From Rhynchopus sp. YZ270_cl-10 (Eukaryota; Euglenozoa; Diplonemea; Diplonemida; Diplonemidae), in the NCBI GenBank assembly GCA_964035575.1, contig OZ037838.1, forward strand, positions 1,798,001 through 1,862,000: a stretch of DNA of 64,000 bases, in the 5' to 3' direction. Made by a program: the position numbers and the translations under genes. Position 1 is the stretch's first letter. The number at the start of each line of letters is the position of its first letter. A model generated the notes under the pieces. That model made no database searches. It saw only the letters and a list, made by a program, of their open reading frames with translations, and was not told the origin of the DNA. Shown here piece by piece: positions 2,263 to 64,000 of this stretch.

Positions 2263-2557
2263 ACCGCACCTGTCGAGGTCAGATGTTCTCTCTGACTCAA
2301 GAACCACCAAAGATGCTAATCCCACGCAATCTTTGAACATTTCCTCCCACCCCTCCCCCCATGCGCTCCGACAAAGGAACGAGAAGCAATAGTATCAGAG
2401 ATGAGGTTTTTGTGTATCAGTAAAAACGACGTGACGCATTTTCATTTTCTCAGACCACCCCTTTCCACCACTCCCCAAATACAGTCACCTAACAGGAGCG
2501 GGTGTTACGCTATTCGTAGAGGATTTCAGGAGAGTTGTTGCGGTTGGGTGAGCTTCG

Positions 2558-14267: not shown

Positions 14268-14608
14268 ACCGCACCTATCGAGGTCAGATGTTCTCTCTGA
14301 CTCAAGAACCACCAAAGATGCTAATCCCACGCAATCTTTGAACATTTCCTCCCACCCCTCCCCCATGCGCTCCAACAAAGGAACGAGAAGCAATAGTATC
14401 AGAGATGAGGTTTTGTGTATCAGTTTTGAGAAGCAAAAAGAATGTATAGGGGTGTATTGAAATATTTTTATTGTTTTTTTTGTTATCTTGAAAATGGTGC
14501 ACCAGAGCCAGTACACAGTGATATTGCGTGCCATGTGGCAGGCCATTTGACCCACCGCAGGAAGGCTGCTCTTTCATCAGTGCTGTCGCAGTAGTGCTTC
14601 TGCCACAC

Positions 14609-14631
14609 ACCTTTCCCACCCCACCCTGCAG
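14609..14631 (+). promoter_or_regulatory. Polypyrimidine-AG acceptor before receptor gene 1
   Basis: CCTTTCCCACCCCACCCTGC then AG, followed 14 nt later by ATG in the context ACCATGG. The site is conserved before all four receptor genes. It fits a spliced-leader or 5'-UTR intron acceptor. Confidence 0.6.
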
Positions 14632-14645
14632 ACACACACACCACC

Positions 14646-17264: not shown

Positions 17265-19070
17265 GGGGTAAGGACATTCTGGTACCCCCAAGTTTGACTT
17301 TTGGACAATTCAGACCCACAAGGTTTCGATAAAGACAATTCAGACCCACAAGGTTTACGATAAAGACAGTTCAGACCCACAAGGTTTACGATAAAGACAC
17401 TTCAGAACCACAAGGTTTGCATTTTGGACAGTTCAACCCCACAAGGTTTGCACTTTGGACAGTTCAGACCTTGTGGGTCTGAACTGTCCAAAATGCAAAC
17501 CTTGTGGTCTGAAGTGTCCAAAATGCAAACCTTGTGGTTCTGAACTGTCCAAAAGTCAAACCTTGTACGTGTTTTCTTCTTCTAAGGTGCTTGCTCTCCA
17601 TACCTAGACCCTCGAATTTTTTTTCTTGACCCCATACATATGGGTGCATTTCGACGATTTGAGGCCATTCAAAGCAAAAGTTGGCACTTTTGAGCATCTG
17701 CGGGGGTCTAAAACACGGTTTTGCGTACACCACGCTGGATGATAGGGGTCACATGATAGGTCACATCATGTGGCCATATATCAAGTTACACCGCAAAAAT
17801 CTACCAGACCCTGTCTTCGTACAACGCCGCAGACAGGCCAAACATGCGTTGGACTCAGAGGAATGCCTGCTGTGCAGGTATCAAACATGAGAACCAACTC
17901 CCAGCAACAAGGGGCGCCTTTTGGCGGGCGTTGTTGAGGGTGTTTGGGGTGCAAAGTTTTCCACAATTTTGATGCGCGGGTACAGAAGCGTTGTCTTGTT
18001 CTTTCATCTCTCGGAATTTAAATGTTCAATCGCGTTTAACTACCACTAGTCTAGGGCTTGTTCAGTGAACCCACGAGGGGTCGAAGGGGGTTGGTTATCC
18101 CATATCTATCAAAGGTTGTGTCGACCAGGCGAATCCACTATGTTACGCTGTATGATGATAAATCCGAAGAAATAACAACAGTGCATATGGCAGCGTCCGC
18201 AAACCACCCCCCCTTAAAGGTTATTATCAACTGCAGGAAGTTTGTTAAAAAGAGTGCCTCACGCTACACAAACCACCACCCGCGATTGACTTAGATGATA
18301 ACTAGAGAATTCAGAACAAAACAAACCCGCAAACCCGTAAACCCGCAAACCCGGGTTTACAGACTTTCCGGAAGTTTACAAAGGTCGAATTTCTTGCACT
18401 AGCTATGCTCCCTGGGTTAAATGGCAATAGCAGTGACTGACTTCTGAGAGAAACAGGGTACTTGAAACCCAATTTTCATTATTTTGGTGTAATCCTATGA
18501 GGGATGGGTGGGGAGGTGTGGGTGTGGGTGGGTGAAAAAAGGTGCACGAAGACAGGGTCTGGTAGATTTTTGCGGTGTAACTTGATATATGGCCACATGA
18601 TGTGACCTATCATGTGACCCCTATCATCCAGCGTGGTGTACGCAAAACCGTGTTTTAGACCCCCGCAGATGCTCAAAAGTGCCAACTTTTGCTTTGAATG
18701 GCCTCAAATCGTCGAAATGCACCCATATGTATGGGGTCAAGAAAAAAAATTCGAGGGTCTAGGTATGGAGAGCAAGCACCTTAGAAGAAGAAAACACGTA
18801 CAAGGTTTGACTTTTGGACAGTTCAGAACCACAAGGTTTGCATTTTGGACACTTCAGACCACAAGGTTTGCATTTTGGACAGTTCAGACCCACAAGGTTT
18901 GCATTTTGGACAGTTCAGACCCACAAGGTCTGAACTGTCCAAAGTGCAAACCTTGTGGTTCTGAAGTGTCTTTATCGTAAACCTTGTGGGTCTGAATTGT
19001 CTTTATCGAAACCTTGTGGGTCTGAATTGTCCAAAAGTCAAACTTGGGGGTACCAGAATGTCCTTACCCC
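17265..19070. mobile_element. Foldback / Mutator-like non-autonomous DNA transposon, 1.8 kb
   Basis: The ends are perfect inverted copies of GGGGTAAGGACATTCTGG. The inverted arms run 17265-17820 and 18547-19070. They contain tandem ~30-bp units of the type TTTGGACAGTTCAGACC/CACAAGGTTTGC. The element is flanked by a 9-bp direct repeat, TTCATTTTT, at 17256-17264 and 19071-19079. Long terminal inverted repeats with a 9-bp target duplication are typical of Mutator-like (MULE) foldback elements. The ~726-bp centre has no transposase. Part of it (17820-18050) is homologous, inverted, to 26500-26695, and a diverged form lies at 41190-41350. It is presumably moved by a transposase encoded elsewhere. 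Confidence 0.8.
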
Positions 19071-28504: not shown

Positions 28505-28779
28505 TATTGTTTTTTGAACGTTTCCTCCCACCCCTCCCCCCATGCGCTCCGACAAAGGAACGAGAAGCAATAGTATCAGAGATGAGGTTTTGTGTATCAG
28601 TTTTGAGAAGCAAAAAGAATGTATTGGGGTGTATTGTTGGTTCTTTTCTGTTTTATCTTGTAAATGGTGCACCAGAGACAGTAATATCACAGTGATAGTG
28701 CGTGCCATGCAGGCCATTTGACCCACCGCAGGAAGGCTGCTCTTTCATCAGTGCTGTTGCAATAGTGCTGCTGACACAC
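28505..28779 (+). promoter_or_regulatory. Leader shared with the other receptor and giant genes
   Basis: The region from 28513 matches 2337-2410 and 14338-14460, then continues as the conserved 'CCACCGCAGGAAGGCTGC' stretch found before all four receptor genes. The CTCCACT leader block of the other copies is absent upstream, so the homology starts inside the leader. Confidence 0.5.
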
Positions 28780-28802
28780 ACCTTTCCCACCCCACCCTGC
28801 AG
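28780..28802 (+). promoter_or_regulatory. Polypyrimidine-AG acceptor before receptor gene 2
   Basis: Identical to the site before receptor gene 1, with ATG 14 nt downstream. Confidence 0.6.
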
Positions 28803-28816
28803 ACACACACACCACC

Positions 28817-31228
28817 ATGGAAATACGTAAGTTCAAACCAACTTGCACAATCAATCTGACATGGCTGATTGCCATGGCGACAGCATTCTCCACGTGTGCG
28901 TCGATTGCCGGCGGGATGATCATGTACTTCGAGTCTGTCGCAGCGCTGGAGAAGACGATTGAAGAAGTGTCTCGTGCTGAGTGTTCTAGTGTCCAGTTGG
29001 ACCTCTTGAAGAGCGTAGAGGAGGCAGAGTCCATTGTGTACAAGACTGAGAGGTTTTTGTTTACGTCCGTGATCAAGTCCCAAGGTCCTATCGTGGCTGA
29101 CGAAAATGGGTTCCTGAATGTCTCGAAGTCGGACAGCACTGACTGGGTTGAGATGATTCGGCGCTACAAGTTTGGCGCAATCCGGCGCAGCAAGCATCTC
29201 TACTCCATCGGTGTTGTGCTGATACCTCACGTGAGGACGGACTCGGCTGGCATCTACACGAACGTGTGGTTCGATCTGAAGGCGGGAAACGAGCGTGAGT
29301 TTGTTTGGGGCCGCTCTGGGAACATGATTGAAGGGGCGAACAACACACATCTGACACTGGCACGAACAGACAAGCTGGACGAGGAGTCTGGCGAGATTAC
29401 TGGGTTTGCGTACAACTTCCCTGCCATCGGACGGTTCATTAACTACGCAACCTATACATTCGCTGACGGCACAGAGCTCAACTTAACGAATTGGCCTGCA
29501 GACTACGCACCACGTGGCTGGTCGCAGGGCACCTATGGCGCACAGGCCCAGCGCTGGCGCTACCCTTCCACATGGTACGCCTCGGACAACAACCCTTACG
29601 TGTACAACTCATATGACGTTGTCTTCGCACCCCCACCCCCACCACACCCGTGGTCGGCTTACAAGTACATCTACATCAGCGGCTTCTTCATCTTCACGCC
29701 TTGGGAGGAGGCCATGGCCCAGTACGGACGGGACCACCCGGGAACAGAGGTAATCGTCTTCGACGCGACCACCGAGTTCGTGTATGCTACTTCAGACAAC
29801 AGAGCCATGATTGACAAGTCGTGCGTCGCGGGTGGGCGCACGGACACGCCACTGGAGGACTGTGTTGTGATGATTTCGCACATGCCCAAGGTGATTCGGG
29901 ACGCGTGGAAGGAAGTCAAAGACGAGGAGGACACCTTTCGCATCACTGATCTCGACGGCGAGAAGCACTTCGTGCGCAGGGCACCCCTCTTCCGCTTCAC
30001 GCCCGAGGGAGGCAAAGACGAGAGCATCCCTGCACCCATGAACGCCTGCATCCTCTGGGTGCGCCCGTACTCTTCTGTCGAGGGTGAGGTGAAGAACGCG
30101 CTGTACCTCTTGATCGGCTTCTCTGCCGCAGTGTTGCTCCTGGACGTGGTGCTTGCAGTGTGTGAGGTGCTTGTGGTCGGTGTGCCGCTGATAAAGCTAT
30201 CTGCTGCGATGACACACCTGCACGACATGGACCTCGTCAACGCACTGCGGTGCACAGACGCCGCACGCACACAGGCCATTGCTGTCACGCAAATCCGCAA
30301 CGTGATCAACGGCCTTCTCTTCGCTGTGCGGAACCTTGGGCAGTACAAAGCGTTCCTCCCGTCGTCGCTTTTTCAGGAGGAGGACACCGCCGATGATGGG
30401 TCGAGCGAGACTTCCGTCACAAAGGATACTGGCAGTAAGGGCAGCGGTGACTCCAGCACATCACCTGCGTCCCGCTGCAGTGCCGTTGTGCGCGCAAACG
30501 TGACTCAGCTGCAGACTGTGTCTGCCAAGGGTGCGCTGCTTGCGGTGCGTGTTGTTGCTGCAGAGGTGGGGCACGCGGAGTACACAACACTGATCGGATA
30601 CCTGCAGGACGTTGTCTCAGCAAGGCGTGGGATGCTGCACGGTATCCAGGCTGTAGAGCACACTCTGTTCCACATCTCGTGGGGGCTGACAGCACGCTGC
30701 ACGCTGTCCTCCTGTGTGAAGTACGCAAGCGAAGTCGCCTCGTTGCTGCCGAATGCACCCACACGCGTGTCCTCTGCTATCGTGTCGGGCTCGTTCCATG
30801 TCGGCAACGTCGGGAACAGCACTCTGCGTGGTGTTGCTGTGTGCGGTACTGAAACCTCAAAGCTGGCCGCCTTCCAAGCCTTCTCCGCACACTGCATGGT
30901 GCTGTCCAAGTCAGCTTCGGTGACAGTACTCAGCAGAAGGGCGGCTTCTGTTCTGGAGGGACAGTTCCTCACCCACTACCTGTGCAAAGCCTTAGGTGAC
31001 AGGATGTGCGAGCTTGGTGCACAAAGCGTCCAGAAGAACGAGGAATGGATGTACACAGTGGACCGCGACCAGTCCACAAGGGACCCCATACAGAGGCACG
31101 TAGATGATGGACTTCCCTTCAAAGATGTGTCGAAGCAGCACATGACAGATCTGCAACAACTTCTCTTCGAGTCAGCTGAAGACGTGAACATGGTGTGGTC
31201 TGTCGCCGGAAGGCTGGGCCCAGCATAA
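28817..31228 (+). CDS. Receptor-like membrane protein with degenerate cyclase domain (subtype B, 803 aa)
   Basis: Same architecture as the gene at 14646: N-terminal anchor, ectodomain, second membrane segment, helical stretch, linker and catalytically degenerate class III cyclase-like domain. Subtype B markers are 'LDLLKSVEEAESIVYKTERF' near residue 62 and the tail 'ALGDRMCELGAQSVQ'. The ectodomain patch near residues 206-222 reads INYATYTFADGTELNLTN, unlike subtype A. The linker is shorter than in its near-twin at 33468 ('SPASRCSAVVRANVTQ'), which explains the 9-residue length difference. The remaining protein is almost identical to the twin. The gene sits in a segmental duplication covering ~28690-31444 and ~33340-36121. 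Confidence 0.85.
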   Translation: MEIRKFKPTCTINLTWLIAMATAFSTCASIAGGMIMYFESVAALEKTIEEVSRAECSSVQLDLLKSVEEAESIVYKTERFLFTSVIKSQGPIVADENGFLNVSKSDSTDWVEMIRRYKFGAIRRSKHLYSIGVVLIPHVRTDSAGIYTNVWFDLKAGNEREFVWGRSGNMIEGANNTHLTLARTDKLDEESGEITGFAYNFPAIGRFINYATYTFADGTELNLTNWPADYAPRGWSQGTYGAQAQRWRYPSTWYASDNNPYVYNSYDVVFAPPPPPHPWSAYKYIYISGFFIFTPWEEAMAQYGRDHPGTEVIVFDATTEFVYATSDNRAMIDKSCVAGGRTDTPLEDCVVMISHMPKVIRDAWKEVKDEEDTFRITDLDGEKHFVRRAPLFRFTPEGGKDESIPAPMNACILWVRPYSSVEGEVKNALYLLIGFSAAVLLLDVVLAVCEVLVVGVPLIKLSAAMTHLHDMDLVNALRCTDAARTQAIAVTQIRNVINGLLFAVRNLGQYKAFLPSSLFQEEDTADDGSSETSVTKDTGSKGSGDSSTSPASRCSAVVRANVTQLQTVSAKGALLAVRVVAAEVGHAEYTTLIGYLQDVVSARRGMLHGIQAVEHTLFHISWGLTARCTLSSCVKYASEVASLLPNAPTRVSSAIVSGSFHVGNVGNSTLRGVAVCGTETSKLAAFQAFSAHCMVLSKSASVTVLSRRAASVLEGQFLTHYLCKALGDRMCELGAQSVQKNEEWMYTVDRDQSTRDPIQRHVDDGLPFKDVSKQHMTDLQQLLFESAEDVNMVWSVAGRLGPA

Positions 31229-33228: not shown

Positions 33229-33430
33229 AGAACTATTCCTCGCTGTTACATGTGTCGCTCTCATGAAGGAGGTACAAGGAGCTATCTCCGCGCCGTTTTC
33301 AATCACAATACTTTTTATGCGGCTCATAGCCCGTACACAGTGATATTTCGTGCCATGTGGCAGGCCATTTGACCCACCGCAGGAAGGCTGCTCTTTCATC
33401 AGTGCTGTTGCAATAGTGCTGCTGACACAC

Positions 33431-33453
33431 ACCTTTCCCACCCCACCCTGCAG
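33431..33453 (+). promoter_or_regulatory. Polypyrimidine-AG acceptor before receptor gene 3
   Basis: Same sequence as at 14609 and 28780, ATG 14 nt downstream. Confidence 0.6.
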
Positions 33454-33467
33454 ACACACACACCACC

Positions 33468-35906
33468 ATGGAAATACGTAAGTTCAAACCAACTTGCACA
33501 ATCAATCTGACATGGCTTATTGCCATGGCGACAGCATTCTCCACGTGTGCGTCGATTGCCGGCGGGATGATCATGTACTTCGAGTCTGTCGCAGCACTGG
33601 AGAAGACGATTGAGGAGGTGTCTCTCGCTGAGTGTTCTAGTATCCAGCTGGACCTCTTGAAGAGCGTAGAGGAGGCAGAGTCCATTGTGTACAAGACTGA
33701 GAGGTTTTTGTTTACGTCCGTGATCAAGTCCCAAGGTCCTATCGTGGCTGACGAAAATGGGTTCCTGAATGTCTCGAAGTCGGACAGCACTGACTGGGTT
33801 GAGATGATTCGGCGCTACAAGTTTGGCGCAATCCGGCGCAGCAAGCATCTCTACTCCATCGGTGTTGTGCTGATACCTCACGTGAGGACGGACTCGGCTG
33901 GCATCTACACGAACGTGTGGTTCGATCTGAAGGCGGGAAACGAGCGTGAGTTTGTTTGGGGCCGCTCTGGGAACATGATTGAAGGGGCGAACAACACACA
34001 TCTGACACTGGCACGAACAGACAAGCTGGACGAGGAGTCTGGCGAGATTACTGGGTTTGCGTACAACTTCCCTGCCATCGGACGGTTCATTAACTACGCA
34101 ACCTATACATTCGCTGACGGCACAGAGCTCAACTTAACGAATTGGCCTGCAGACTACGCACCACGTGGCTGGTCGCAGGGCACCTATGGCGCACAGGCCC
34201 AGCGCTGGCGCTACCCTTCCACATGGTACGCCTCGGACAACAACCCTTACGTGTACAACTCATATGACGTTGTCTTCGCACCCCCACCCCCACCACACCC
34301 GTGGTCGGCTTACAAGTACATCTACATCAGCGGCTTCTTCATCTTCACGCCTTGGGAGGAGGCCATGGCCCAGTACGGACGGGACCACCCGGGAACAGAG
34401 GTAATCGTCTTCGACGCGACCACCGAGTTCGTGTATGCTACTTCAGACAACAGAGCCATGATTGACAAGTCGTGCGTCGCGGGTGGGCGCACGGACACGC
34501 CACTGGAGGACTGTGTTGTGATGATTTCGCACATGCCCAAGGTGATTCGGGACGCGTGGAAGGAAGTCAAAGACGAGGAGGACACCTTTCGCATCACTGA
34601 TCTCGACGGCGAGAAGCACTTCGTGCGCAGGGCACCCCTCTTCCGCTTCACGCCCGAGGGAGGCAAAGACGAGAGCATCCCTGCACCCATGAACGCCTGC
34701 ATCCTCTGGGTGCGCCCGTACTCTTCTGTCGAGGGTGAGGTGAAGAACGCGCTGTACCTCTTGATCGGCTTCTCTGCCGCAGTGTTGCTCCTGGACGTGG
34801 TGCTTGCAGTGTGTGAGGTGCTTGTGGTCGGTGTGCCGCTGATAAAGCTATCTGCTGCGATGACACACCTGCACGACATGGACCTCGTCAACGCGCTGCG
34901 GTGCACAGACGCCGCACGTACACAGGCCATTGCTGTCACGCAGATCCGCAACGTGATCAACGGCCTTCTCTTCGCTGTGCGGAACCTTGGGCAGTACAAA
35001 GCGTTCCTCCCGTCGTCGCTTTTTCAGGAGGAGGACACCGCCGATGATGGGTCGAGCGAGACTTCCGTCACAAAGGATACTGGCAGTAAGGGCAGCGGTG
35101 ACTCCAGCACATCACCTGCGGCCCGCAGACACTCTGCAGCTGCGTCCCGCAGCAGTGCCGTTGTGCGCACAGGGAACGTGACGCAGCTTCAGACTGTGTC
35201 TGCCAAGGGTGCGCTGCTTGCGGTGCGTGTTGTTGCTGCAGAGGTGGGGCATGCGGAGTACACAACACTGATCGGATACCTGCAGGACATTGTCTCAGCA
35301 AGGCGTGGGATGCTGCACGGTATCCAGGCTGTGGAGCACACTCTGTTCCACATCTCGTGGGGGCTGACAGCACGCTGCACGCTGTCCTCCTGTGTGAAGT
35401 ACGCAAGCGAAGTCGCCTCGTTGCTGCCGAATGCACCCACACGCGTGTCCTCTGCTATCGTGTCGGGCTCGTTCCATGTCGGCAACGTCGGGAACAGCAC
35501 TCTGCGTGGTGTTGCTGTGTGCGGTACTGAAACCTCAAAGCTGGCCGCCTTCCAAGCCTTCTCCGCACACTGCATGGTGCTGTCCAAGTCAGCTTCGGTG
35601 ACAGTACTCAGCAGAAGGGCGGCTTCTGTTCTGGAGGGACAGTTCCTCACCCACTACCTGTGCAAAGCCTTAGGTGACAGGATGTGCGAGCTTGGTGCAC
35701 AAAGCGTCCAGAAGAACGAGGAATGGATGTACACAGTGGACCGCGACCAGTCCACAAGGGACCCCATACAGAGGCACGTAGATGATGGACTTCCCTTCAA
35801 AGATGTGTCGAAGCAGCACATGACAGATCTGCAACAACTTCTCTTCGAGTCAGCTGAAGACGTGAACATGGTGTGGTCTGTCGCCGGAAGGCTGGGCCCA
35901 GCATAA
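33468..35906 (+). CDS. Receptor-like membrane protein with degenerate cyclase domain (subtype B, 812 aa)
   Basis: A near-twin of 28817-31228, with the same subtype B ectodomain patch and C-terminal tail. The N-terminal region differs at single residues (LAECSSIQ versus RAECSSVQ). The linker after 'SSTSPA' continues 'ARRHSAAASRSSAVVRTGNV', and its second half matches subtype A rather than the twin, so the gene is a mosaic. The cyclase-like domain differs from the others by one residue (QDIVSARRG). The catalytic Asp, Asn and Arg positions are missing as in all copies. The two near-identical twins point to a recent duplication. Function as for the paralogues: a presumed non-enzymatic membrane sensor. 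Confidence 0.85.
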   Translation: MEIRKFKPTCTINLTWLIAMATAFSTCASIAGGMIMYFESVAALEKTIEEVSLAECSSIQLDLLKSVEEAESIVYKTERFLFTSVIKSQGPIVADENGFLNVSKSDSTDWVEMIRRYKFGAIRRSKHLYSIGVVLIPHVRTDSAGIYTNVWFDLKAGNEREFVWGRSGNMIEGANNTHLTLARTDKLDEESGEITGFAYNFPAIGRFINYATYTFADGTELNLTNWPADYAPRGWSQGTYGAQAQRWRYPSTWYASDNNPYVYNSYDVVFAPPPPPHPWSAYKYIYISGFFIFTPWEEAMAQYGRDHPGTEVIVFDATTEFVYATSDNRAMIDKSCVAGGRTDTPLEDCVVMISHMPKVIRDAWKEVKDEEDTFRITDLDGEKHFVRRAPLFRFTPEGGKDESIPAPMNACILWVRPYSSVEGEVKNALYLLIGFSAAVLLLDVVLAVCEVLVVGVPLIKLSAAMTHLHDMDLVNALRCTDAARTQAIAVTQIRNVINGLLFAVRNLGQYKAFLPSSLFQEEDTADDGSSETSVTKDTGSKGSGDSSTSPAARRHSAAASRSSAVVRTGNVTQLQTVSAKGALLAVRVVAAEVGHAEYTTLIGYLQDIVSARRGMLHGIQAVEHTLFHISWGLTARCTLSSCVKYASEVASLLPNAPTRVSSAIVSGSFHVGNVGNSTLRGVAVCGTETSKLAAFQAFSAHCMVLSKSASVTVLSRRAASVLEGQFLTHYLCKALGDRMCELGAQSVQKNEEWMYTVDRDQSTRDPIQRHVDDGLPFKDVSKQHMTDLQQLLFESAEDVNMVWSVAGRLGPA

Positions 35907-38451: not shown

Positions 38452-38545
38452 TGTACCTGTGTACCTGTGTACCTGTGTACCTGTGTACCTGTGTACCTGT
38501 GTACCTGTGTACCTGTGTACCTGTGTACCTGTGTACCTGTGTACC
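38452..38545 (-). repeat. 8-bp satellite (CAGGTACA), locus 1
   Basis: About eleven units, read as TGTACCTG on the + strand. Confidence 0.95.
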
Positions 38546-40770: not shown

Positions 40771-40984
40771 GGTACACAGGTACACAGGTACACAGGTACA
40801 CAGGTACACAGGTACACAGGTACACAGGTACACAGGTACACAGGTACACAGGTACACAGGTACACAGGTACACAGGTACACAGGTACACAGGTACACAGG
40901 TACACAGGTACACAGGTACACAGGTACACAGGTACACAGGTACACAGGTACACAGGTACACAGGTACACAGGTACACAGGTACA
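40771..40984 (+). repeat. 8-bp satellite (CAGGTACA), locus 2
   Basis: About 26 units. It is bounded on both sides by inverted CGCGCGGACCCT (40746) and AGGGTCCGCGCG (41008) and by GTGCCAG-type text, so it lies in the loop of an inverted repeat. Confidence 0.95.
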
Positions 40985-46637: not shown

Positions 46638-46831
46638 ATAAAAATGGCGCCGCAGACAAAGAAATTGGGGGTACAGCCCTGGATGGTGCAGGATTTTGTT
46701 GTCAATTTTTTTTTTCTTGCCCCCTGAAAACTCTTGCTTTTGAGAGTTTCGACCATTTCACCACACTGGTGGTGTGTCACCTACAGTGAAACCCACCAGA
46801 AACCACAAGAAAGCCCCCTAAGGAAAAAAGG
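46638..46831. repeat. Dispersed repeat, inverted partner at 58115-58303
   Basis: From GGCGCCGCAG through CTGGATGGTGCAGGATTTTG and GGTGGTGTGTCACCTACAG to CCTAAGG. The partner is the reverse complement with few differences. Confidence 0.85.
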
Positions 46832-46859
46832 AAAAATAACTATTTATTACTGTAAAATA

Positions 46860-47179: not shown

Positions 47180-47572
47180 CAGGTACACAGGTACGGGTAC
47201 ACGGATCCACCGGTACTCAGGTACAGGTACACAGGTACACAGGTACACAGGTACACAGGTACACAGGTACACAGGTACACAGGTACACAGGTACACAGGT
47301 ACACAGGTACACAGGTACACAGGTACACAGGTACACAGGTACACAGGTACACAGGTACACAGGTACACAGGTACACAGGTACACAGGTACACAGGTACAC
47401 AGGTACACAGGTACACAGGTACACAGGTACACAGGTACACAGGTACACAGGTACACAGGTACACAGGTACACAGGTACACAGGTACACAGGTACACAGGT
47501 ACACAGGTACACAGGTACACAGGTACACAGGTACACAGGTACACAGGTACACAGGTACACAGGTACACAGGT
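47180..47572 (+). repeat. 8-bp satellite (CAGGTACA), locus 3 (longest)
   Basis: About 45 clean units after a degenerate left edge (47180-47225) with GGTACGGG and GGATCCACC variants. Open frames in it are repeat translation only. Confidence 0.95.
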
Positions 47573-49051: not shown

Positions 49052-49453
49052 AAGCGATTCTACACATCATCGTGACATCATCATAAGAAATAACGTTGAG
49101 AGGCGCATGTCATTATGACGTGGTACCACGTGTCAATCTGCTTGTACGGTTTTGCTATTAAATTTCTTTAAAATCAGTTTTGCGAAGTAAACATAATGTA
49201 TAGTGGTGTACTCAACTCTTTGTGTTCTTACTTCTTTCGAAACTCAATATGGTAGACAGAACTATTCCTCGCTGTTGCATGTGTCGCTCTCATGCAGGAG
49301 GTACAAGGAGCTATCTCCGCGCCGTTTTCAATCACAATACTTTTTGTGGCGCTCATAGCCAGTACACATTGCGTGCCATGTGGCAGGCCATTTGACCCAC
49401 CGCAGGAAGGCTGCTCTTTCATCAGTGCTGTTGCAATAGTGCTGCTGACACAC

Positions 49454-49476
49454 ACCTTTCCCACCCCACCCTGCAG
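49454..49476 (+). promoter_or_regulatory. Polypyrimidine-AG acceptor before receptor gene 4
   Basis: Same tract as the other three genes. The CA repeat after it is a few units longer, giving 17 nt to the ATG. Confidence 0.6.
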
Positions 49477-49493
49477 ACACACACACACACACC

Positions 49494-51932
49494 ATGGAAA
49501 TACGTAAGTTCAGGCCAACATGCACAATCAATTTGACATGGCTGATTGCCATGGCGACAGCATTCTCCACGTGTGCGTCGATTGCCGGCGGGATGATCAT
49601 GTACTTCGAGTCTGTCGCAGCACTGGAGAAGACGATCGAAGAAGTGTCCGGTGCTGAATGTTCGGGGATCCAGCTTGAGCTCTTGAAGAGCGTGGAGGAG
49701 ACGGAGTCCATTGTGTACAAGACTCATAAGTTTTTGTATACGCCGGTGATCAAGTCCCAAGGTCCTATCGTGGCTGATGAAAATGGGTTCCTGAATGTCT
49801 CGAAGTCGGACAGCACTGACTGGGTTGAGATGCTTCGGCGCTACAAGTTTGGCACAATCCGGCGCAGCAAGTATCTCTACTCGATGGGCGTTGTGTTGAT
49901 ACCTCACGTGAGGACGGACTCGGCTGGCATCTACACGAACGTGTGGTTCGATCTGAAGGCGGGAAACGAGCGTGAGTTTGTTTGGGGCCGCTCTGGGAAC
50001 ATGATTGAAGGAGCGAACAACACACATCTGACACTGGCACGAACAGACAAGCTGGACGAGGAGTCTGGCGAGATTACTGGGTTTGCGTACAACTTCCCTG
50101 CCATCGGACGGTTCATGAACTTCGAAAACTGGGATCCCAATGGGGGCAAAGACTTTAACTTCACGAATTGGCCTGCAGACTACGCGCCACGTGGCTGGTC
50201 GCAGGGCACCTATGGCTCACAAATCCAGCGCTGGCGCTACCCCTCCCCTTGGTACGCTTCGGACAACAACCCTTACGTGTACAACTCATATGACGTTGTC
50301 TTCGCACCCCCACCCTCACCACACCCGTGGTCGGCTTACAAGTACATCTACATCAGCGGTTTCTTCATCTTCACGTCTTGGGAGGAGGCTGTTGCCCAGT
50401 ACGGACAGGACCACCCGGGAACAGAGGTAATCGTTTTCGACGCGACCACCGAGTTCGTGTATGCTACTTCAGACAATAGAACGATGATCGACAAGTCGTG
50501 CAACGCGGCCGGGCGCACGGACACTCCACTGGAGGACTGTGTTGTGACGATTTCGCACATGCCCAAGGTGATGCAGGATGCATGGAAGGAAGTCAAAGAC
50601 GAGGAGGACACCTTTCGCATCACTGATCTCGACGGCGAGAAGCACTTCGTGCGCAGGGCACCCCTCTTCCGCTTCACGCCCGAGGGAGGCAAAGACGAGA
50701 GCATCCCTGCACCCATGAACGCCTGCATCCTCTGGGTGCGCCCGTACTCTTCTGTCGAGGGTGAGGTGAAGAACGCGCTGTACCTCTTGATCGGCTTCTC
50801 TGCCGCAGTGTTGATCCTGGACGTGGTGCTTGCAGTGTGTGAGGTGCTTGTGGTCGGTGTGCCGCTGATAAAGCTATCTGCTGCGATGACACACCTGCAC
50901 GACATGGACCTCGTCAACGCACTGCGGTGCACAGACGCCGCACGCACACAGGCCATTGCTGTCACGCAGATCCGCAACGTGATCAACGGCCTTCTCTTCG
51001 CTGTGCGGAACCTTGAGCAGTACAAAGCGTTCCTCCCGTCGTCGCTCTTCCAGGAGGAGGACACCGACAACGATGGGTCGAGCGAGACTTCCGACACAAA
51101 GGATATTGTCAGCAGGGTAAGCAGGGTCAGCAGCGTCTCCCGCCCACCTTCTGCACACACAGCTGCGTCCCGCAGCAGTGCCGTTGTGCGCACAGGGAAC
51201 GTGACTCAGCTTCAGACTGTGTCTGCCAAGGGTGCGCTGCTTGCGGTGCGTGTTGTTGCTGCAGAGGTGGGGCACGCGGAGTACACAACACTGATCGGAT
51301 ACCTGCAGGACGTTGTCTCAGCAAGGCGTGGGATGCTGCACGGTATCCAGGCTGTAGAGCACACTCTGTTCCACATCTCGTGGGGGCTGACAGCACGCTG
51401 CACGCTGTCCTCCTGTGTGAAGTACGCAAGCGAAGTCGCCTCGTTGCTGCCGAATGCACCCACACGCGTGTCCTCTGCTATCGTGTCGGGCTCGTTCCAT
51501 GTCGGCAACGTCGGGAACAGCACTCTGCGTGGTGTTGCTGTGTGCGGTACTGAAACCTCAAAGCTGGCCGCCTTCCAAGCCTTCTCCGCACACTGCATGG
51601 TGCTGTCCAAGTCAGCTTCGGTGACAGTACTCAGCAGAAGGGCGGCTTCTGTTCTGGAGGGACAGTTCCTCACGCACTACCTGTGCAAATCCGACTCAGG
51701 TGACAGGATGTGCGAACTTGGCGAACTGAACGTCCAGAAGAACGAGGAATGGATGTACACACTGCACCACGACTTGTCTACAAGGGATCCCATACAGAGG
51801 CACGTAGAAGGTGCTATTGCGTTTGAAGACATCTCGAAACAGGACATGACAGATCTGCAACAACTTCTCTTCAAGTCAGCTGAAGACGTGAACATGGTGT
51901 GGTCTGTCACGGGAAGGCTGGGCCCAGCATAA
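49494..51932 (+). CDS. Receptor-like membrane protein with degenerate cyclase domain (subtype A, 812 aa)
   Basis: Same architecture as the other three paralogues. Subtype A markers shared with 14646-17078 are 'GAECSGIQLELLKS' and the tail 'SDSGDRMCELGELNVQ'. The ectodomain patch is its own version (MNFENWDPNGGKDFNFTN). The linker has one extra 'VSR' unit (SRVSRVSSVSRPPSAHT). Near the C-terminus it has private changes (KQDMTDLQQLLFKS, SVTGRLGPA). The N-terminal anchor, second membrane segment and cyclase-like domain are nearly identical to the rest, and the metal-binding and transition-state residues are absent. The 3' flank is shared with the orphan segment at 24695-25310. It is presumed to be a membrane sensor without cyclase activity. 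Confidence 0.85.
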   Translation: MEIRKFRPTCTINLTWLIAMATAFSTCASIAGGMIMYFESVAALEKTIEEVSGAECSGIQLELLKSVEETESIVYKTHKFLYTPVIKSQGPIVADENGFLNVSKSDSTDWVEMLRRYKFGTIRRSKYLYSMGVVLIPHVRTDSAGIYTNVWFDLKAGNEREFVWGRSGNMIEGANNTHLTLARTDKLDEESGEITGFAYNFPAIGRFMNFENWDPNGGKDFNFTNWPADYAPRGWSQGTYGSQIQRWRYPSPWYASDNNPYVYNSYDVVFAPPPSPHPWSAYKYIYISGFFIFTSWEEAVAQYGQDHPGTEVIVFDATTEFVYATSDNRTMIDKSCNAAGRTDTPLEDCVVTISHMPKVMQDAWKEVKDEEDTFRITDLDGEKHFVRRAPLFRFTPEGGKDESIPAPMNACILWVRPYSSVEGEVKNALYLLIGFSAAVLILDVVLAVCEVLVVGVPLIKLSAAMTHLHDMDLVNALRCTDAARTQAIAVTQIRNVINGLLFAVRNLEQYKAFLPSSLFQEEDTDNDGSSETSDTKDIVSRVSRVSSVSRPPSAHTAASRSSAVVRTGNVTQLQTVSAKGALLAVRVVAAEVGHAEYTTLIGYLQDVVSARRGMLHGIQAVEHTLFHISWGLTARCTLSSCVKYASEVASLLPNAPTRVSSAIVSGSFHVGNVGNSTLRGVAVCGTETSKLAAFQAFSAHCMVLSKSASVTVLSRRAASVLEGQFLTHYLCKSDSGDRMCELGELNVQKNEEWMYTLHHDLSTRDPIQRHVEGAIAFEDISKQDMTDLQQLLFKSAEDVNMVWSVTGRLGPA

Positions 51933-55520: not shown

Positions 55521-55669
55521 CCCAGGTACCCAGGTACCCAGGTACCCAGGTACCCAGGTACCCAGGTACCCAGGTACCCAGGTACCCAGGTACCCAGGTA
55601 CCCAGGTACCCAGGTACCCAGGTACCCAGGTACCCAGGTACCCAGGTACCCAGGTACCCAGGTACCTGG
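55521..55669 (+). repeat. 8-bp satellite variant (CAGGTACC), left palindrome arm
   Basis: About 18 units, all of the CAGGTACC form (C where the other loci have A). Confidence 0.95.
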
Positions 55670-57681: not shown

Positions 57682-57886
57682 CCAGGTACCTGGGTACCTG
57701 GGTACCTGTGTACCTGTGTACCTGTGTACCTGTGTACCTGTGTACCTGTGTACCTGTGTACCTGTGTACCTGTGTACCTGTGTACCTGTGTACCTGTGTA
57801 CCTGTGTACCTGTGTACCTGTGTACCTGTGTACCTGTGTACCTGTGTACCTGTGTACCTGTGTACCTGTGTACCTGGGTACCTGGG
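57682..57886 (-). repeat. 8-bp satellite (CAGGTACA), right palindrome arm
   Basis: About 25 units. The outermost two units on each side are the GGGTACCT form matching the left arm; all inner units are the TGTGTACC form. Confidence 0.95.
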
Positions 57887-58114
57887 AAAACACGTACGTT
57901 TTTGTTCGCGAAAACACGTACACTTTTTCGCGATAACACGTATACTTTTTGTGTACGTGTTATCGCAAATCGAAAAAAAAAGTATACGTGTTATCGCAAT
58001 TTACCCAAAAAAAAAAAAAAAAAAAAAAATGGTCGGGAACAGGGAAGTTCCTAAGTGGGACCGAGAACATGAAATTCTGGATTTTAGTTTTTTTTTCCTT
58101 TTTTTTTTTCCTTT

Positions 58115-58303
58115 TTTCCTTAGGGAGCTTTGTTGTGGTTTCTGGTGGGTTTCACTGTAGGTGACACACCACCAGTGTGGTGAAATGGTCGAAACTCTCA
58201 AAAGCAAGAGTTTTCAGGGGGCAAGAAAAAAAAATTGACAACAAAATCCTGCACCGTCCAGGGCTGTACCCCCAATTTATTTTTGCCTGCGGCGCCATTT
58301 TTC
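58115..58303. repeat. Dispersed repeat, inverted partner of 46638-46831
   Basis: CCTTAGGGAGCTTTGTTGTG through TGCACCGTCCAGGGCTGTAC to GCGGCGCCAT. The last part (TGCCTGCGGCGCC) repeats again at ~58370. Confidence 0.85.
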
Positions 58304-58879: not shown

Positions 58880-59902
58880 TTGCTGTTTTTTCCGAGAACA
58901 AGGAACAACCCTGGTCGGGAATGTTCTGCCGGGATTTTTGGACGATTCGTTTTTCCCGGACAAAAAACCCACACAAATTATAAAGTGACACCCCCTTGTG
59001 GGAAGCGCATCGCCAACGACATGCAAGGGAACTGCATGTACGTCTCCCTCATGGGCAAGATGGGCAGTTACCTGGACGTAGCCAACGAACGCAAAGAGCT
59101 GGCCAGGAGTGCGTTGACGACCGAGAAGAAGCGCGGCCTCAGAAGACACTTCGACACGGAGGCTGAATTCTCCACGTGGGTGGCAGGGGTGGAAGGAGAC
59201 GCTTGGGGTGACCTGCTGACGCTACACCACATAGCCATGACATGGTCGTTGACGATCCTGGTTGTGCAGCCGGGGGCGTGCCCCATGGTGGTGGTGAACA
59301 GGGAACGCCAGTCGAAGAAGAAGACACAAAAGAAGAAGCCACGGGAGGTGAGGGTGATATCGCTGATTGGGGAACACTACGAGCAGGTGCAGATGGACCC
59401 GGCACAGGCTTCCGCACTAGCCAATGCCGCCCCCATTGCAGAGCTCATCCCATCCCGGCTGGCGGTGTCTCCGATTCCCGGCATGACGAAGGACGCGACT
59501 TCTCCACTGGAAGGGGACTCCCCCCTCCTCTACTGCCCAGTACCGTGTTGCCAGGGAAGCCGGTTCCACCGGGACATCCCCTTATCCGGTCCAGGGCTAC
59601 GCGCACATATCGCTGGCCACCTAGCAGAGGGAGACCACATTCCGCACGACACTCTGCGGAAGTTCGGCCTGGGTCAATGTGGTGTGTGTGACGGCATCCG
59701 AGCAGCGAAGAACGAGACGTGCCTGCAATGCTCGAGGCTGGTACAGGCGGTGCCACGCCCGTCACCCACCATCCGCACACCGGCGCAGGAAGTGGACGAC
59801 CGCGACATGCCGGACTGGTATGAGATCGCGGCAGCACCCATCCCGACCCACGACACCGTGCCCAAAGCGATTGACCGGGCGGCGGCGGTGGAGTTCGCGA
59901 AA
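58880..59902 (+). CDS. LINE ORF, N-terminal part: OTU-like protease and zinc fingers
   Basis: The frame is open from an ATG at 58880, but real protein character starts near 58990 ('CGKRIANDMQGNCMYVSLMG'); the first ~35 codons are probably flanking DNA. 'GNCMYVSL' (Cys codon 59033-59035) and 'SLIGEHYEQV' (His codon 59374-59376) are the Cys and His boxes of an OTU-family cysteine protease. Gln takes the place of the usual Asp in the Asp-Gly-Asn-Cys motif. A finger follows: CPVPCC, then 'GLRAHIAGHLAEGDHIP', then 'QCGVCDG' and 'CLQC', as in N-termini of R2-like elements, where such fingers bind target DNA. From ~59902 the meaningful reading continues in the +1 frame. This frame itself stays open to 60169 but loses protein character. 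Confidence 0.8.
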
Positions 59903-62900
59903 GGTGTTGGAAGACGTAGCTGGCTGCAACGACGAGAACAGCTGGAAGAGGCTTTGCATGTTCGCAAAACTCGTGTTGTCCAGAAAACGGGGAGGTGCGA
60001 ACATCAACAAGAAGGTGGTGGCACAGCGGGAGGCGGAGGTGACAGAGTGGTCGCAGGGGGAAATTGCGGCGATGTGGTCTGCAGCGACTCGATCTCTTCC
60101 TGGGCGTGGGCCGGGCAAGGAGCGGAAGGAGCCGACGAAGGAGGAGAGGGAGAAAGCGTGTGTCACTGAAGTCCGGAACGGTAGGCTCGCAGCAGGGATG
60201 AGTCGTCTCCACAAAGGCGGTACTGCGCCCGTTACGACAGAGACGACAGCGAAGCTGAGGGCGAAGCACCCGGAGGAGGCCCCACAGGTGGCAAACACCA
60301 CTGCGCACGTTGCCCTCGAACCCCTGAAGCCCATCGACGCCCTGAAGGCCATCAAGAGCATGTCGAAGGGATCATCACCAGGCCCATTCGGTCTCAGGGG
60401 CGACCATTTGAAGGAATGGATGGTCAAACACCCTGACCTCAACCTCCTCCCCCTCATGACGCTAGTCCTGGACCTATTGCGAAGAGGCCAGGCCCCACCT
60501 GAGGCAGCAGAATTTCTTGCCGGAGCCACGCTCGTCGCCCTGAAGAAAGGTGAAACGGATGTCCGCCCCATATCTGCAGGCAACACACTTCGTCGGGTGG
60601 TGAGCAAGATTGAAGTGGGATCAGTCCGGACGCAGGCGCGGGACAAGCTTCTCCCTGGTCGCCAAGTAGGGGTGGCGGTGGATGGTGGACTGGAGGCTGC
60701 TACAATGGTGGTGGCGGATTACGTGAAACGCAACCTAGGGAAGAACAAGGTGATAGTCCTCGTGGACTATGAAAACGCTTTCAACAGCATCCACCGGTCC
60801 ACCTTCCTCGCGGCTACTCGAAAGTACCTCCCCACCATCTCCCCATGGATCGAGTGGTGTTACGGCAGGCCGACTTCCCTCCTGCACGGCGACGACCTCA
60901 TCCAGTCGCAACGAGGGGCACAGCAGGGTGACCCGGCAGGACCGCTTCTTTTCTCCCTAGGGATCAAGGAACTGACGGAGGAGGTGAAGGCGATGCCGGG
61001 GATTGATGCCAGCTTGTGGTACCTGGACGACGGGACCATCATGGGCCCACCCGAAGCAGTGGGACGGGCGTTGAAGCTGGTGCAGGAGCGGAGCCTGGAG
61101 ATGGGTCTGCGGGTGAAGCTGGCGAAATGCGAGGTGATTGCGCTAGGACAGCAGACGCCACGTGACCTAGCACAGGCGGGCTTGCCAGTGTGTGCCCATG
61201 GATACCCGGACGACGGTGCGTGCGCAGCATGTGAGGGCAAGGCCATGAAGGTGCAGTACGGTGGGTTCGCGTTCTTGGGGGCGCCTATCGGTGACGACGA
61301 GTTTTGCGAGTCCTACATGGACAAGCAGGTGAAGGAGTTCGCTGAGCAGCTCCGCCTCCTCAAGGACCTCAAGGACGTACAGGTCGGGTTGACGCTTCTT
61401 CGCCAGTGTGAAGGCTTCGCGAGGATGGTGTTTTACATGCGTGCTATCGGACATGCGTGTACTCATCAGTACCTCAAGGAGTACGACAAGGAGGTCGACG
61501 CTGCGCTCGCCTCGTTGATGGGTGACACGGAAGGGCTTCTCCCAGAGATGGCACGTCGTCAGGCAGCACTTCCCTGCAGAGCTGGAGGCATGGGAGTCCG
61601 TCGCATCCGTGACCACTGGACGGCCGCGGCGATGGGGTCGCGGAGCGGGCTACATGAGTTGTGTAAGGTGCTAGACCCGGAGTTCCAATGGGATGCGGAA
61701 GGGTGGAAAGAGACTGCGACGGAGCACAACCGACATGTAGCAGAAGCAGACAAAGTAGACCCTCTGGTGAGACCAGCCACCCCTGTGCGACAAAGGGAGC
61801 TATCGGCAGGAATCCTCGAAGAACAGCTGCGGCGACTGTACCTGGAGGGTGATGCGGCTGATCGGGCACGGATGAACTCCCTCTCCCTTCCGCATGCAGG
61901 CGCGTGGCTCATGGCGCCCCCAACGTGGGAACACCACATCCCCCCGGAGCAGTTCCAGGCGGTCTGCAGGATCCGCATGCACCTACCTCTCTTCGCAGAC
62001 GGGGTCCAGTGCAGGCAGTGTGGGCAGGCCATGGACGCGAGAGGCGACCACATTTTCGCCTGCAAGATGGGAGGACACCGCATTCTGAGGCACAACGCAG
62101 TACGCGACTTCGTCTACTCCGTTGCGAACGAAGCAGGTCTAGGCCCCACTCTCGAACCCCAACACCTGGTACTGGGGAACAAGAAGCCAGCAGACCTCTT
62201 CCTGTCCACGGGGGTGGGCGAGTCGCGGGGGCGGGCCATTGACGTGACAGTGTGGACCCCGACGTGCAAGTCGATGGTGCAGGGTGCTGCGGTGGCCAAG
62301 GGGTACACGGCAACGAAGGCGGAGGCGGCGAAGAGGGGGAAGCACCAGGCCGCCTGCATTGCTGCACGGATCACCTTCACTCCATTCGCATTGGAGACGA
62401 CGGGAGGGTTCGGGCCTGCGGCATCCACAATCTGGACGCAAATGCTACGCTTCGCAGCCGACAGGAAGCTGGGCAGCAAGCAGGAGATGTCGCGTCGTTG
62501 GGCGTGGGGGATGGGCACTACGCTGCAGCGGATGATTGGCAAGTCAGCGATGGACAGAGGGTGTCTGCGCGGGGACACAGCAGGCGCGCTCAGGGAGAGG
62601 ATAGAGGTGGACGTCGCGCCGTTGCCAGGTGAGGACGAACACTTCCGACTTCCTCCCGACCACCTGCCTCCCATAGATAATGCACCAGACGACGGTCTAT
62701 TCGATATCGACGTGTCCGCACTGAACCCCGAAGAGCCTGCGGAGCACCCTGACCCTCCACCTTGCCCTAACCCGGCGGATGGGAGCGCAACTCGACCACA
62801 GACGTTCCACGAAGAACGTTGGAACACCCTCGGGATGACAGTCCCAACGGTAACAGTGCCGTTCACTGTCGGGGACTGCGCCTTTGATGCAGTCAGGTGG

Positions 62901-64000
62901 CTGCTACGGGAGTGGAGGGACATCTCCTCTGGGGACCTGCGGAAGCTTGCAGTGACGAGGGTCAAGCAGGACAGGGACCTGGCGAACTCGGCGGAACCGA
63001 CTTTCGGGTCGTGGGTGCGCTGGATGAGCGTGGAGGGGAGTCCGGACACTCGTTCGTGGGCGGACGTGACGGCGTTGGCTGGTCTCTCCCGTGCATTACA
63101 GATAGTTGTGGCGGTGGTGCGGGCGGACAGCAAGACGACATTCCTGAGACCGGCGGCAGCCCCACGAGGTGCGATAGCCCTGCTACACGAAGGACCGGTG
63201 GGCGCCGGGCACTACTCCCCTCTAGTGGTAGGTGCAGTGGCGATGGAGATGATGATGAAGATGGAGCCACAAATCCCCCCTGTGGAGATGCAGTGCATGA
63301 ACACCGGAACGCTGTCGTACATGGGTGACAGGCAGGATAGAGACGGAGAGATGGTGACGTGTGAGGGCTGCGCTGCGGTATTCGAGGACAGCATTGCACA
63401 TTGGTTCTGTTCGGCGTGCCCACTCAAGTGGTGTACTAATGAGGCCTGCGCAGGGGAGGGCGCTAAATGTGCAGCACGCAGGCGCAGAGCCACCACCACT
63501 CCTTCAACATCGACCACCAGCCAGGGAGGTAGCTTTTACAACAACAGCAACCCAGCACCCCCACTGGCCGAGGTAGAGATTAAGGAAGAGGAGTTGGATG
63601 AGGCCTTCGAGTCCAGCCGCATGGAGATGGAAAGGCGCAGCAACAGCAACAGCAACAGCAACAACAACAACAACAGCAACAACAACAACGACACCAACAA
63701 CGACACCAACACTGACAACAACGACGACGACGTTGCCGACACCAACCACGACACTAACATGACCGAGAACGCCGCACCGACAATGACCGCAATGAGGACC
63801 AGCTTTCAACAACAAAAGCCATCAGCTATCCTGTGCGAATTAAAGGAGGGGTCGGCCAAAAAAGGTGCATGGAAGGAAGCATCCGCCAGGAAGAGGAGGG
63901 AACAGGCGGAGCAGCGCGTCGCCGAAAAACGCGCAGAGAAGGCTGCGGCCAAAAGGCGAGCACCCACCGCCCACCCAGCAGGATCTGACGCCCCTGTGGA
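58985..64000 (+). mobile_element. Non-LTR retrotransposon (LINE) with RT, restriction-like endonuclease and two OTU-like domains; 3' end beyond window
   Basis: The base composition changes from AT-rich to GC-rich near 58985-58995, where protein similarity starts abruptly, so the copy is probably 5'-truncated there. Protein order: OTU-like protease 1 (59012-59385), C2H2-type zinc finger plus CxxC knuckles (59531-59735), RT (~60300-61250), CCHC knuckle and restriction-like endonuclease (62010-62400), OTU-like protease 2 (62850-63235), a Cys-rich finger (63360-63486), an Asn/Ser/Asp tract and a basic tail. The RT-endonuclease order is that of the R2/NeSL/CRE-type branch. One frameshift lies near 59900. 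No 3' UTR, poly-A or target duplication can be seen because the window ends inside the ORF. Confidence 0.85.
59904..64000 (+). CDS. LINE ORF, main part: reverse transcriptase, endonuclease, second OTU-like domain (open to window end)
   Basis: Open in one frame from 59625 past the window end. It makes sense from ~59904 ('VLEDVAGCNDENSWKRLCMF'), in direct continuation of the upstream frame. RT motif A is 'VLVDYENAFNSI' (Asp 60765), motif B 'QRGAQQGDPAGPLLFS' (QGDP at 60924), motif C 'WYLDDGTIMG' (Asp pair 61026-61031) and motif D 'GLRVKLAKCEV'; all catalytic Asp residues are present. The endonuclease part has 'CRQC', then His and Cys (62010-62063), 'RHNAVRDF', 'KPADLF' and 'IDVTVW'. OTU-like domain 2 has 'VGDCAFDAVRWL' (Cys 62877-62879) and 'GAGHYSPLV' (His 63210-63212). 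Then come 'CEGC...CSAC...CTNEAC' and an Asn-rich tract. The product would copy RNA at a nicked target; the proteases' substrate is unknown. Confidence 0.85.
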   Translation, partial: MLEDVAGCNDENSWKRLCMFAKLVLSRKRGGANINKKVVAQREAEVTEWSQGEIAAMWSAATRSLPGRGPGKERKEPTKEEREKACVTEVRNGRLAAGMSRLHKGGTAPVTTETTAKLRAKHPEEAPQVANTTAHVALEPLKPIDALKAIKSMSKGSSPGPFGLRGDHLKEWMVKHPDLNLLPLMTLVLDLLRRGQAPPEAAEFLAGATLVALKKGETDVRPISAGNTLRRVVSKIEVGSVRTQARDKLLPGRQVGVAVDGGLEAATMVVADYVKRNLGKNKVIVLVDYENAFNSIHRSTFLAATRKYLPTISPWIEWCYGRPTSLLHGDDLIQSQRGAQQGDPAGPLLFSLGIKELTEEVKAMPGIDASLWYLDDGTIMGPPEAVGRALKLVQERSLEMGLRVKLAKCEVIALGQQTPRDLAQAGLPVCAHGYPDDGACAACEGKAMKVQYGGFAFLGAPIGDDEFCESYMDKQVKEFAEQLRLLKDLKDVQVGLTLLRQCEGFARMVFYMRAIGHACTHQYLKEYDKEVDAALASLMGDTEGLLPEMARRQAALPCRAGGMGVRRIRDHWTAAAMGSRSGLHELCKVLDPEFQWDAEGWKETATEHNRHVAEADKVDPLVRPATPVRQRELSAGILEEQLRRLYLEGDAADRARMNSLSLPHAGAWLMAPPTWEHHIPPEQFQAVCRIRMHLPLFADGVQCRQCGQAMDARGDHIFACKMGGHRILRHNAVRDFVYSVANEAGLGPTLEPQHLVLGNKKPADLFLSTGVGESRGRAIDVTVWTPTCKSMVQGAAVAKGYTATKAEAAKRGKHQAACIAARITFTPFALETTGGFGPAASTIWTQMLRFAADRKLGSKQEMSRRWAWGMGTTLQRMIGKSAMDRGCLRGDTAGALRERIEVDVAPLPGEDEHFRLPPDHLPPIDNAPDDGLFDIDVSALNPEEPAEHPDPPPCPNPADGSATRPQTFHEERWNTLGMTVPTVTVPFTVGDCAFDAVRWLLREWRDISSGDLRKLAVTRVKQDRDLANSAEPTFGSWVRWMSVEGSPDTRSWADVTALAGLSRALQIVVAVVRADSKTTFLRPAAAPRGAIALLHEGPVGAGHYSPLVVGAVAMEMMMKMEPQIPPVEMQCMNTGTLSYMGDRQDRDGEMVTCEGCAAVFEDSIAHWFCSACPLKWCTNEACAGEGAKCAARRRRATTTPSTSTTSQGGSFYNNSNPAPPLAEVEIKEEELDEAFESSRMEMERRSNSNSNSNNNNNSNNNNDTNNDTNTDNNDDDVADTNHDTNMTENAAPTMTAMRTSFQQQKPSAILCELKEGSAKKGAWKEASARKRREQAEQRVAEKRAEKAAAKRRAPTAHPAGSDAPV

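Follow-up and report, generated by a model that had tools for sequence, protein, structure and literature searches.

A degenerate R2-like LINE copy in Rhynchopus sp. and an intact relative with candidate OTU-like domains on both sides of the reverse transcriptase–endonuclease core

The DNA analysed here, referred to as the window, comprises 64,000 nucleotides from the diplonemid Rhynchopus sp. YZ270_cl-10 (assembly GCA_964035575.1, contig OZ037838.1, positions 1,798,001 to 1,862,000 of the forward strand). Its last 5 kb are occupied by one copy, on the + strand, of a long interspersed nuclear element (LINE), which is 5′-truncated and frame-broken; no second copy of the LINE protein was found elsewhere within the window. 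The order of the encoded protein is an OTU-like domain (domain A), zinc fingers, a reverse transcriptase (RT), a CCHC knuckle, a restriction-like endonuclease (RLE), a second OTU-like domain (domain B) and a Cys-rich finger. The initial annotation had described a single polyprotein in which two OTU-like cysteine protease domains bracket the RT and endonuclease. The Cys, Trp and His motifs on which it relied were all found where it had placed them, at both ends of the element, and the RT (RVT_1) and an R2-like CCHC/RLE stretch do lie between the two domains.

The RT domain, with a YLDD motif, is located at 60340..61170 (+); its Pfam match is to RVT_1, with an E value of 2.5e-16 over protein residues 219-425 (about 60543-61163). 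A profile built from three related proteins (P0001, P0002 and P0003, described below) together with the window frame-3 protein was searched against the PDB. The best matches were R2 proteins (9nl3_A, E 2.2e-14), and LINE-1 ORF2p matched more weakly (2.4e-10). A second stretch aligned to R2 spans the CCHC knuckle (62010..62063, +) and the RLE (KPAD...AIDVTV; 62064..62520, +), with 14.0 bits and an E value of 0.076 when taken alone. The knuckle has the spacing C-x2-C-x9-H-x3-C in the window and in P0003, its His being one position off the C-x2-3-C-x7-8-H-x4-C given for this position ahead of the RLE in PMC5678591. A Pfam scan of P0002 at E values up to 1 revealed no apurinic/apyrimidinic endonuclease (APE) and no RNase H, and the element thus falls outside the Dualen type, in which an APE accompanies the RLE. 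Judged by its sequence, the element is an RLE-type (R2-like) LINE, i.e. one with a LINE-type RT and a downstream RLE.

Of 7995 candidates scored in a protein search, 10 were returned: P0001 to P0003, six Cafeteria proteins (P0004 to P0009) and P0010. Beyond the RT, Pfam OTU was matched among these 10 only in P0001, below the cut-off, and in P0002. The latter, from a cluster of 72 sequences, is an unbroken relative of 2125 amino acids, 67% identical, in which both motif sets are kept in one protein; it is the full-length relative with both domains whose existence the initial annotation had proposed to check. P0001 is 99% identical over 74% of the query part, diverges past the RLE and is without domain B. 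The predicted protein of P0003 begins near the RT, so the presence of domain A there cannot be judged. When the window was compared with P0002 in 50-residue blocks, identity was 48-68% in the frame-2 part (domain A and fingers), 60-86% from RT to RLE, 40-64% over domain B and 14-46% behind it. Both OTU-like domains are less conserved than the RT-RLE core, and the weakest blocks of domain B overlap the best blocks of the tail.

The copy in the window is read in two frames. Frame 2 holds domain A (59000..59420, +) and two putative zinc fingers read from the translation (CPVPCC...H...H and CGVC...CLQC; 59534..59740, +), which are also present in P0001 and P0002 and which gave no match in a family search. 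Everything from the RT through the Cys-rich finger is in frame 3, which includes a low-complexity Ser/Asn/Asp tail (63632..63760, +) and stays open as far as the window end, no stop codon being reached. The change from frame 2 to frame 3 falls at 59885..59920 (+), where P0001 and P0002 continue in a single frame. The match to the near-identical P0001 starts at approximately 59000, and P0001 has about 24 further N-terminal residues. Since P0001 reads through the point near 59.9 kb and begins earlier, the window copy is considered to be broken and 5′-truncated near 59000. Because two frames are used, the initial annotation of one continuous open polyprotein was rejected for this copy. Programmed frameshifting was considered as well and set aside, since no change of frame occurs in P0001 and P0002. 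On the evidence of its reading frames, this is a dead copy.

Domain A carries its Cys codon at 59033-59035, Trp at 59204-59206 and His at 59375-59377, and the three residues are unchanged between P0001 and P0002. Against the curated cut-off of 23.3 bits for Pfam OTU (PF02338), domain A of P0002 scored 30.1 and 25.5 bits; those of the window (18.1 bits, E 0.0039) and of P0001 (12.8 bits) fell below it. By sequence profile, then, domain A is an OTU domain, and it probably acts as a cysteine protease or a deubiquitinase. The assignment is weakened by its structure model, which is a poor one and for which no OTU structure was among the 50 Foldseek matches listed. PDB sequence searches with the profiles of A and of B gave no OTU match.

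The usual OTU consensus has a DGxC box with Asp, and Asn or Asp two residues after the catalytic His. Domains A and B both lack the Asp of the box and the Asn or Asp at His+2, where Glu is found in domain A and Ser in domain B. Cys and His are present in both domains, in the window and in P0002. Turnip yellow mosaic virus (TYMV) PRO is described as a divergent OTU that is active without a third catalytic residue (PMC3968130, PMC5695851), and enzymatic activity of A and B may likewise be possible despite their non-consensus active sites.

Domain B (62799..63266, +; Cys 62877-62879, Trp 63057-63059, His 63210-63212, all in frame 3) is followed by a Cys/His-rich putative zinc finger (C-x2-C...HW-x-C-x2-C-x4-C...C; 63360..63471, +), found in the window, P0002 and P0003, with a weak Pfam TackOD1 match (E 0.013, 15.5 bits against a cut-off of 32). 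The evidence for an OTU fold in domain B comes mainly from its structure model. Although this model is of low confidence, all 20 of its best PDB fold matches in Foldseek are OTU structures, and OTU structures are also concentrated among its VIA matches. Several observations must be set against this. Pfam OTU scored only 12.7-13.8 bits for domain B in the window and P0002, far below the score of domain A and under the cut-off, and in the window an unrelated Pfam family ranks just above it. No domain B match to Pfam OTU was obtained in P0003. In addition, the Cys box of domain B in P0003 contains no Cys, and in the alignment made here a Tyr occupies the His position, although Trp box and Cys-rich finger are retained. 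P0003 could, however, be a copy in decay; it belongs to a cluster of 3 sequences and lies on a contig of 4.5 kb.

These results divide the initial claim of two OTU-like cysteine proteases. The profile comparison that had been proposed as a check placed domain A above the cut-off in P0002 and domain B below it in every copy scanned, and the proposed structure predictions favoured OTU for domain B, not for domain A. It is most likely, on the model, that domain B has an OTU fold, a conclusion that is supported but not proven; possibly it is a divergent, non-catalytic one. Given the sub-threshold scores of B, the A model unlike OTU, and the lack of Cys and His in P0003, the claim of two cysteine proteases is weakened, and for B it is doubtful.

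A scan of genome contigs identified seven related loci (L001 to L007), in metagenome-assembled bacterial bins, of which they are probably eukaryotic contamination. In L001, L002, L003, L005, L006 and L007 the frame passes through the RLE and ends at a stop codon; L004, where part of the sequence is masked, was not counted. The A and B profiles gave nothing significant against six-frame segments of the seven loci (best E values 1.7 for A and 0.28 for B), and domain B is absent from all six relatives with a complete C-terminus. For domain A the negative result says little, since the contig ends on the N-terminal side of the protein in L001, L002, L003 and L007. Protein searches with only the A or the B region returned nothing at E 0.1 from 2023 candidates and only P0001 from 7998; as they missed P0002, which carries both domains and is of admissible length, they are no proof of absence. 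In viral contigs, none of the 89 pattern matches for the core, 31 for B and 39 for A was confirmed. An RT tree of the relatives recovered here was constructed with 15 rows (the window, P0002 to P0007, P0009, P0010 and six loci; P0001, P0008 and L004 were left out). The carriers of domain B, namely the window, P0002 and P0003, form one group in it with support of 99/97, while branches are long and the deeper joins unsure. The simplest history is that domain B and its finger were gained once, in the ancestor of these three.

Other features of these loci were also observed. L006 (613-6135, +) encodes a related LINE protein with an N-terminal Cys box (NGNCLLHGWA) and a GNHYVYM motif; the Cys-box region has no Pfam or PDB match, and this N-terminus could, from its motifs, possibly be another divergent cysteine protease. 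Close to the start of L003, in frame 3 and upstream of the RT, there is a 2A-like motif (GDVEANPGP) that resembles ribosome-skipping peptides. Upstream of the LINE frame in L001 (1-600, +) there is a weak match to an RNase H1 N-terminal domain (Cauli_VI, E 0.0007, 20.2 bits, cut-off 21).

The best explanation of the data as a whole, and a reasonably probable one, is that the window holds a dead RLE-type LINE copy, an intact relative of which carries an OTU-like domain A and an OTU-fold domain B flanking the RT-RLE core. What the sequences show directly is the order of the domains, the assignment of A by profile and the fact that P0002 has both A and B. That B is not an OTU domain at all, its motifs and weak matches being coincidental, would fit the low Pfam score, the unrelated family just above it and the poor model, but it is improbable in view of the concentration of OTU structures among the fold matches and of the resemblance of B to A. 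The Cys-to-Trp spacing is 57 residues in A and 60 in B, and the Cys-to-His spacing 114 and 111. Two small profiles (A from P0001 and P0002, B from the window and P0002) were aligned locally with free start; the alignment was in register from the Cys boxes to a point past the Trp boxes, ending before the His boxes, and was equalled by none of 150 column shuffles and then by 3 of 2000. This register, together with the retention of both motif sets in the unbroken P0002, places the motifs beyond chance. When the A profile was run on tiles of P0002, the best foreign tiles were those containing B (27.5 and 27.0; next, 25.0). The same register and spacing would be expected if A and B descended from one domain through an internal duplication long ago. 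Membership of a common fold family would, however, put them in register anyway, hhalign of A against B gave a probability of 0.16% (E 0.37), and the B profile scored slightly higher on an unrelated P0002 tile (start 937; 35.0) than on the one containing A (32.5), all of which leaves an old duplication unlikely; the hhalign and tile results also qualify the shared fold. The initial annotation had suggested internal duplication or two acquisitions. A recent duplication is unlikely and was rejected on the hhalign result, while an old one and two acquisitions are indistinguishable. From their sequences, A and B are probably of one fold and not recent duplicates; with so little sequence in common, any shared origin must be old.

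As regards function, the RT-RLE core would work as in R2, the RLE nicking the target and the RT priming on the nick. Domain A would act as a deubiquitinase or protease, and domain B would either be another OTU enzyme, of the dyad type, or serve to bind ubiquitin or a substrate. Most likely, A may strip ubiquitin from the ribonucleoprotein of the element or, where the target is nicked, from proteins of the host, a role to which we give not quite an even chance; that A cuts the element's own chain is ranked behind it and seems rather unlikely. This ranking follows from the lack of an identified cleavage site and from the nairovirus precedent, in which the OTU sits in the polymerase protein and takes no part in its cleavage. 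The same two points, and the P0003 domain B without Cys and His, weigh against the wider proposal that A and B are both self-processing proteases that cut the chain on either side of the core in the manner of tymovirus and arterivirus OTUs. That both domains flank the core agrees with such a role, as does TYMV PRO, which, lacking a third catalytic residue, nevertheless cuts its polyprotein (PMC3968130, PMC5695851), but on balance we think it has a small chance of being correct. A stronger contender, though still short of probable, is that only A is an OTU enzyme and that B is an OTU fold turned, or turning, into a ubiquitin- or substrate-binding module with a finger behind it. P0003, with Trp box and finger kept and Tyr in place of His, is what would be expected of such a module, and so is the far lower OTU score of B; on the other hand, the window and P0002 retain both Cys and His in B, and P0003 may simply be decayed. 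Finally, and speculatively, both OTU-fold modules may work on the ubiquitin system, A as an eraser and B with its zinc finger as a reader whose catalysis was lost in some lineages, thereby coupling target-primed reverse transcription to ubiquitin signals at the nick.

The remainder of the window contains other repeats and open frames. Upstream of the LINE, the DNA is partly another repeat, 58102-58302 recurring at 46640-46839 with 95.5% identity. Four similar open frames of 817-827 codons (14595-17075, 28775-31225, 33426-35903 and 49449-51929, +) share MEIRKF[KR]PTCTINLTWLIAMATAFSTC near the start; the two that were scanned matched no Pfam family at E 0.01, nor did one open frame of 3423 codons (2552-12820, +). 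Related 8-base units (such as GTACCTGT) form many nearly perfect arrays, at 38452-38545, 40771-40984, 47180-47572, 55521-55666 and 57686-57884, and arrays of a 31-base unit, both orientations being present, at 17304-17566 and 18800-19031. No Rfam match was obtained in the window at the gathering score.

Ulp1- and OTU-type proteases recur across unrelated mobile elements, and the reason for their retention is unsettled. In two lineages domain B has retained the catalytic pair and in a third the pair is missing, so that naturally occurring enzyme and non-enzyme forms are at hand for asking whether the role is cutting of the element's own protein, removal of ubiquitin or mere binding.

Dualen LINEs are reported to carry a cysteine protease, and have an RLE as here; they are defined by APE plus RLE, and P0002 has no APE by Pfam. 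R2-group RLE LINEs combine zinc finger, RT, CCHC and RLE in one protein, as does the present element. Among the papers listed by searches of the open-licence PMC literature, Repbase not being covered, no report of an RLE LINE with OTU at both ends was recognised; novelty is assigned on this basis, Ulp1-like RLE LINEs and OTU-bearing DNA transposons having been published. NeSL and Utopia-1_TSP are RLE LINEs with one N-terminal Ulp1-like cysteine protease (PMC4640811); their single protease is Ulp1-like, whereas the N-terminal domain here is OTU-like and a second OTU-like domain follows the RLE. OTU domains are described in Ginger1 transposases and Helentrons, which are mobile elements but DNA transposons; Ginger1 is said to have one OTU or one Ulp1, 'not both' (PMC2836005), and the roles suggested by the authors are DNA repair signalling, chromatin change and self-protein cutting (PMC2836005, PMC4067079). 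Tymovirus PRO/DUB (protease/deubiquitinase) and other viral OTUs are also divergent OTUs inside a replicase protein, but these belong to RNA viruses, and there activity is proven (PMC3968130), whereas for the LINE it is only possible. The bacterial LotA, described as unique among OTU deubiquitinases for its two deubiquitinase domains (PMC9486567), has two OTU domains in one protein, as here, but is no mobile element, and both of its enzymes have been characterised. Taken together, what is known is a single Ulp1-like protease in RLE LINEs and OTU in DNA transposons, and what appears to be new is an OTU-like domain at each end of an RLE LINE.
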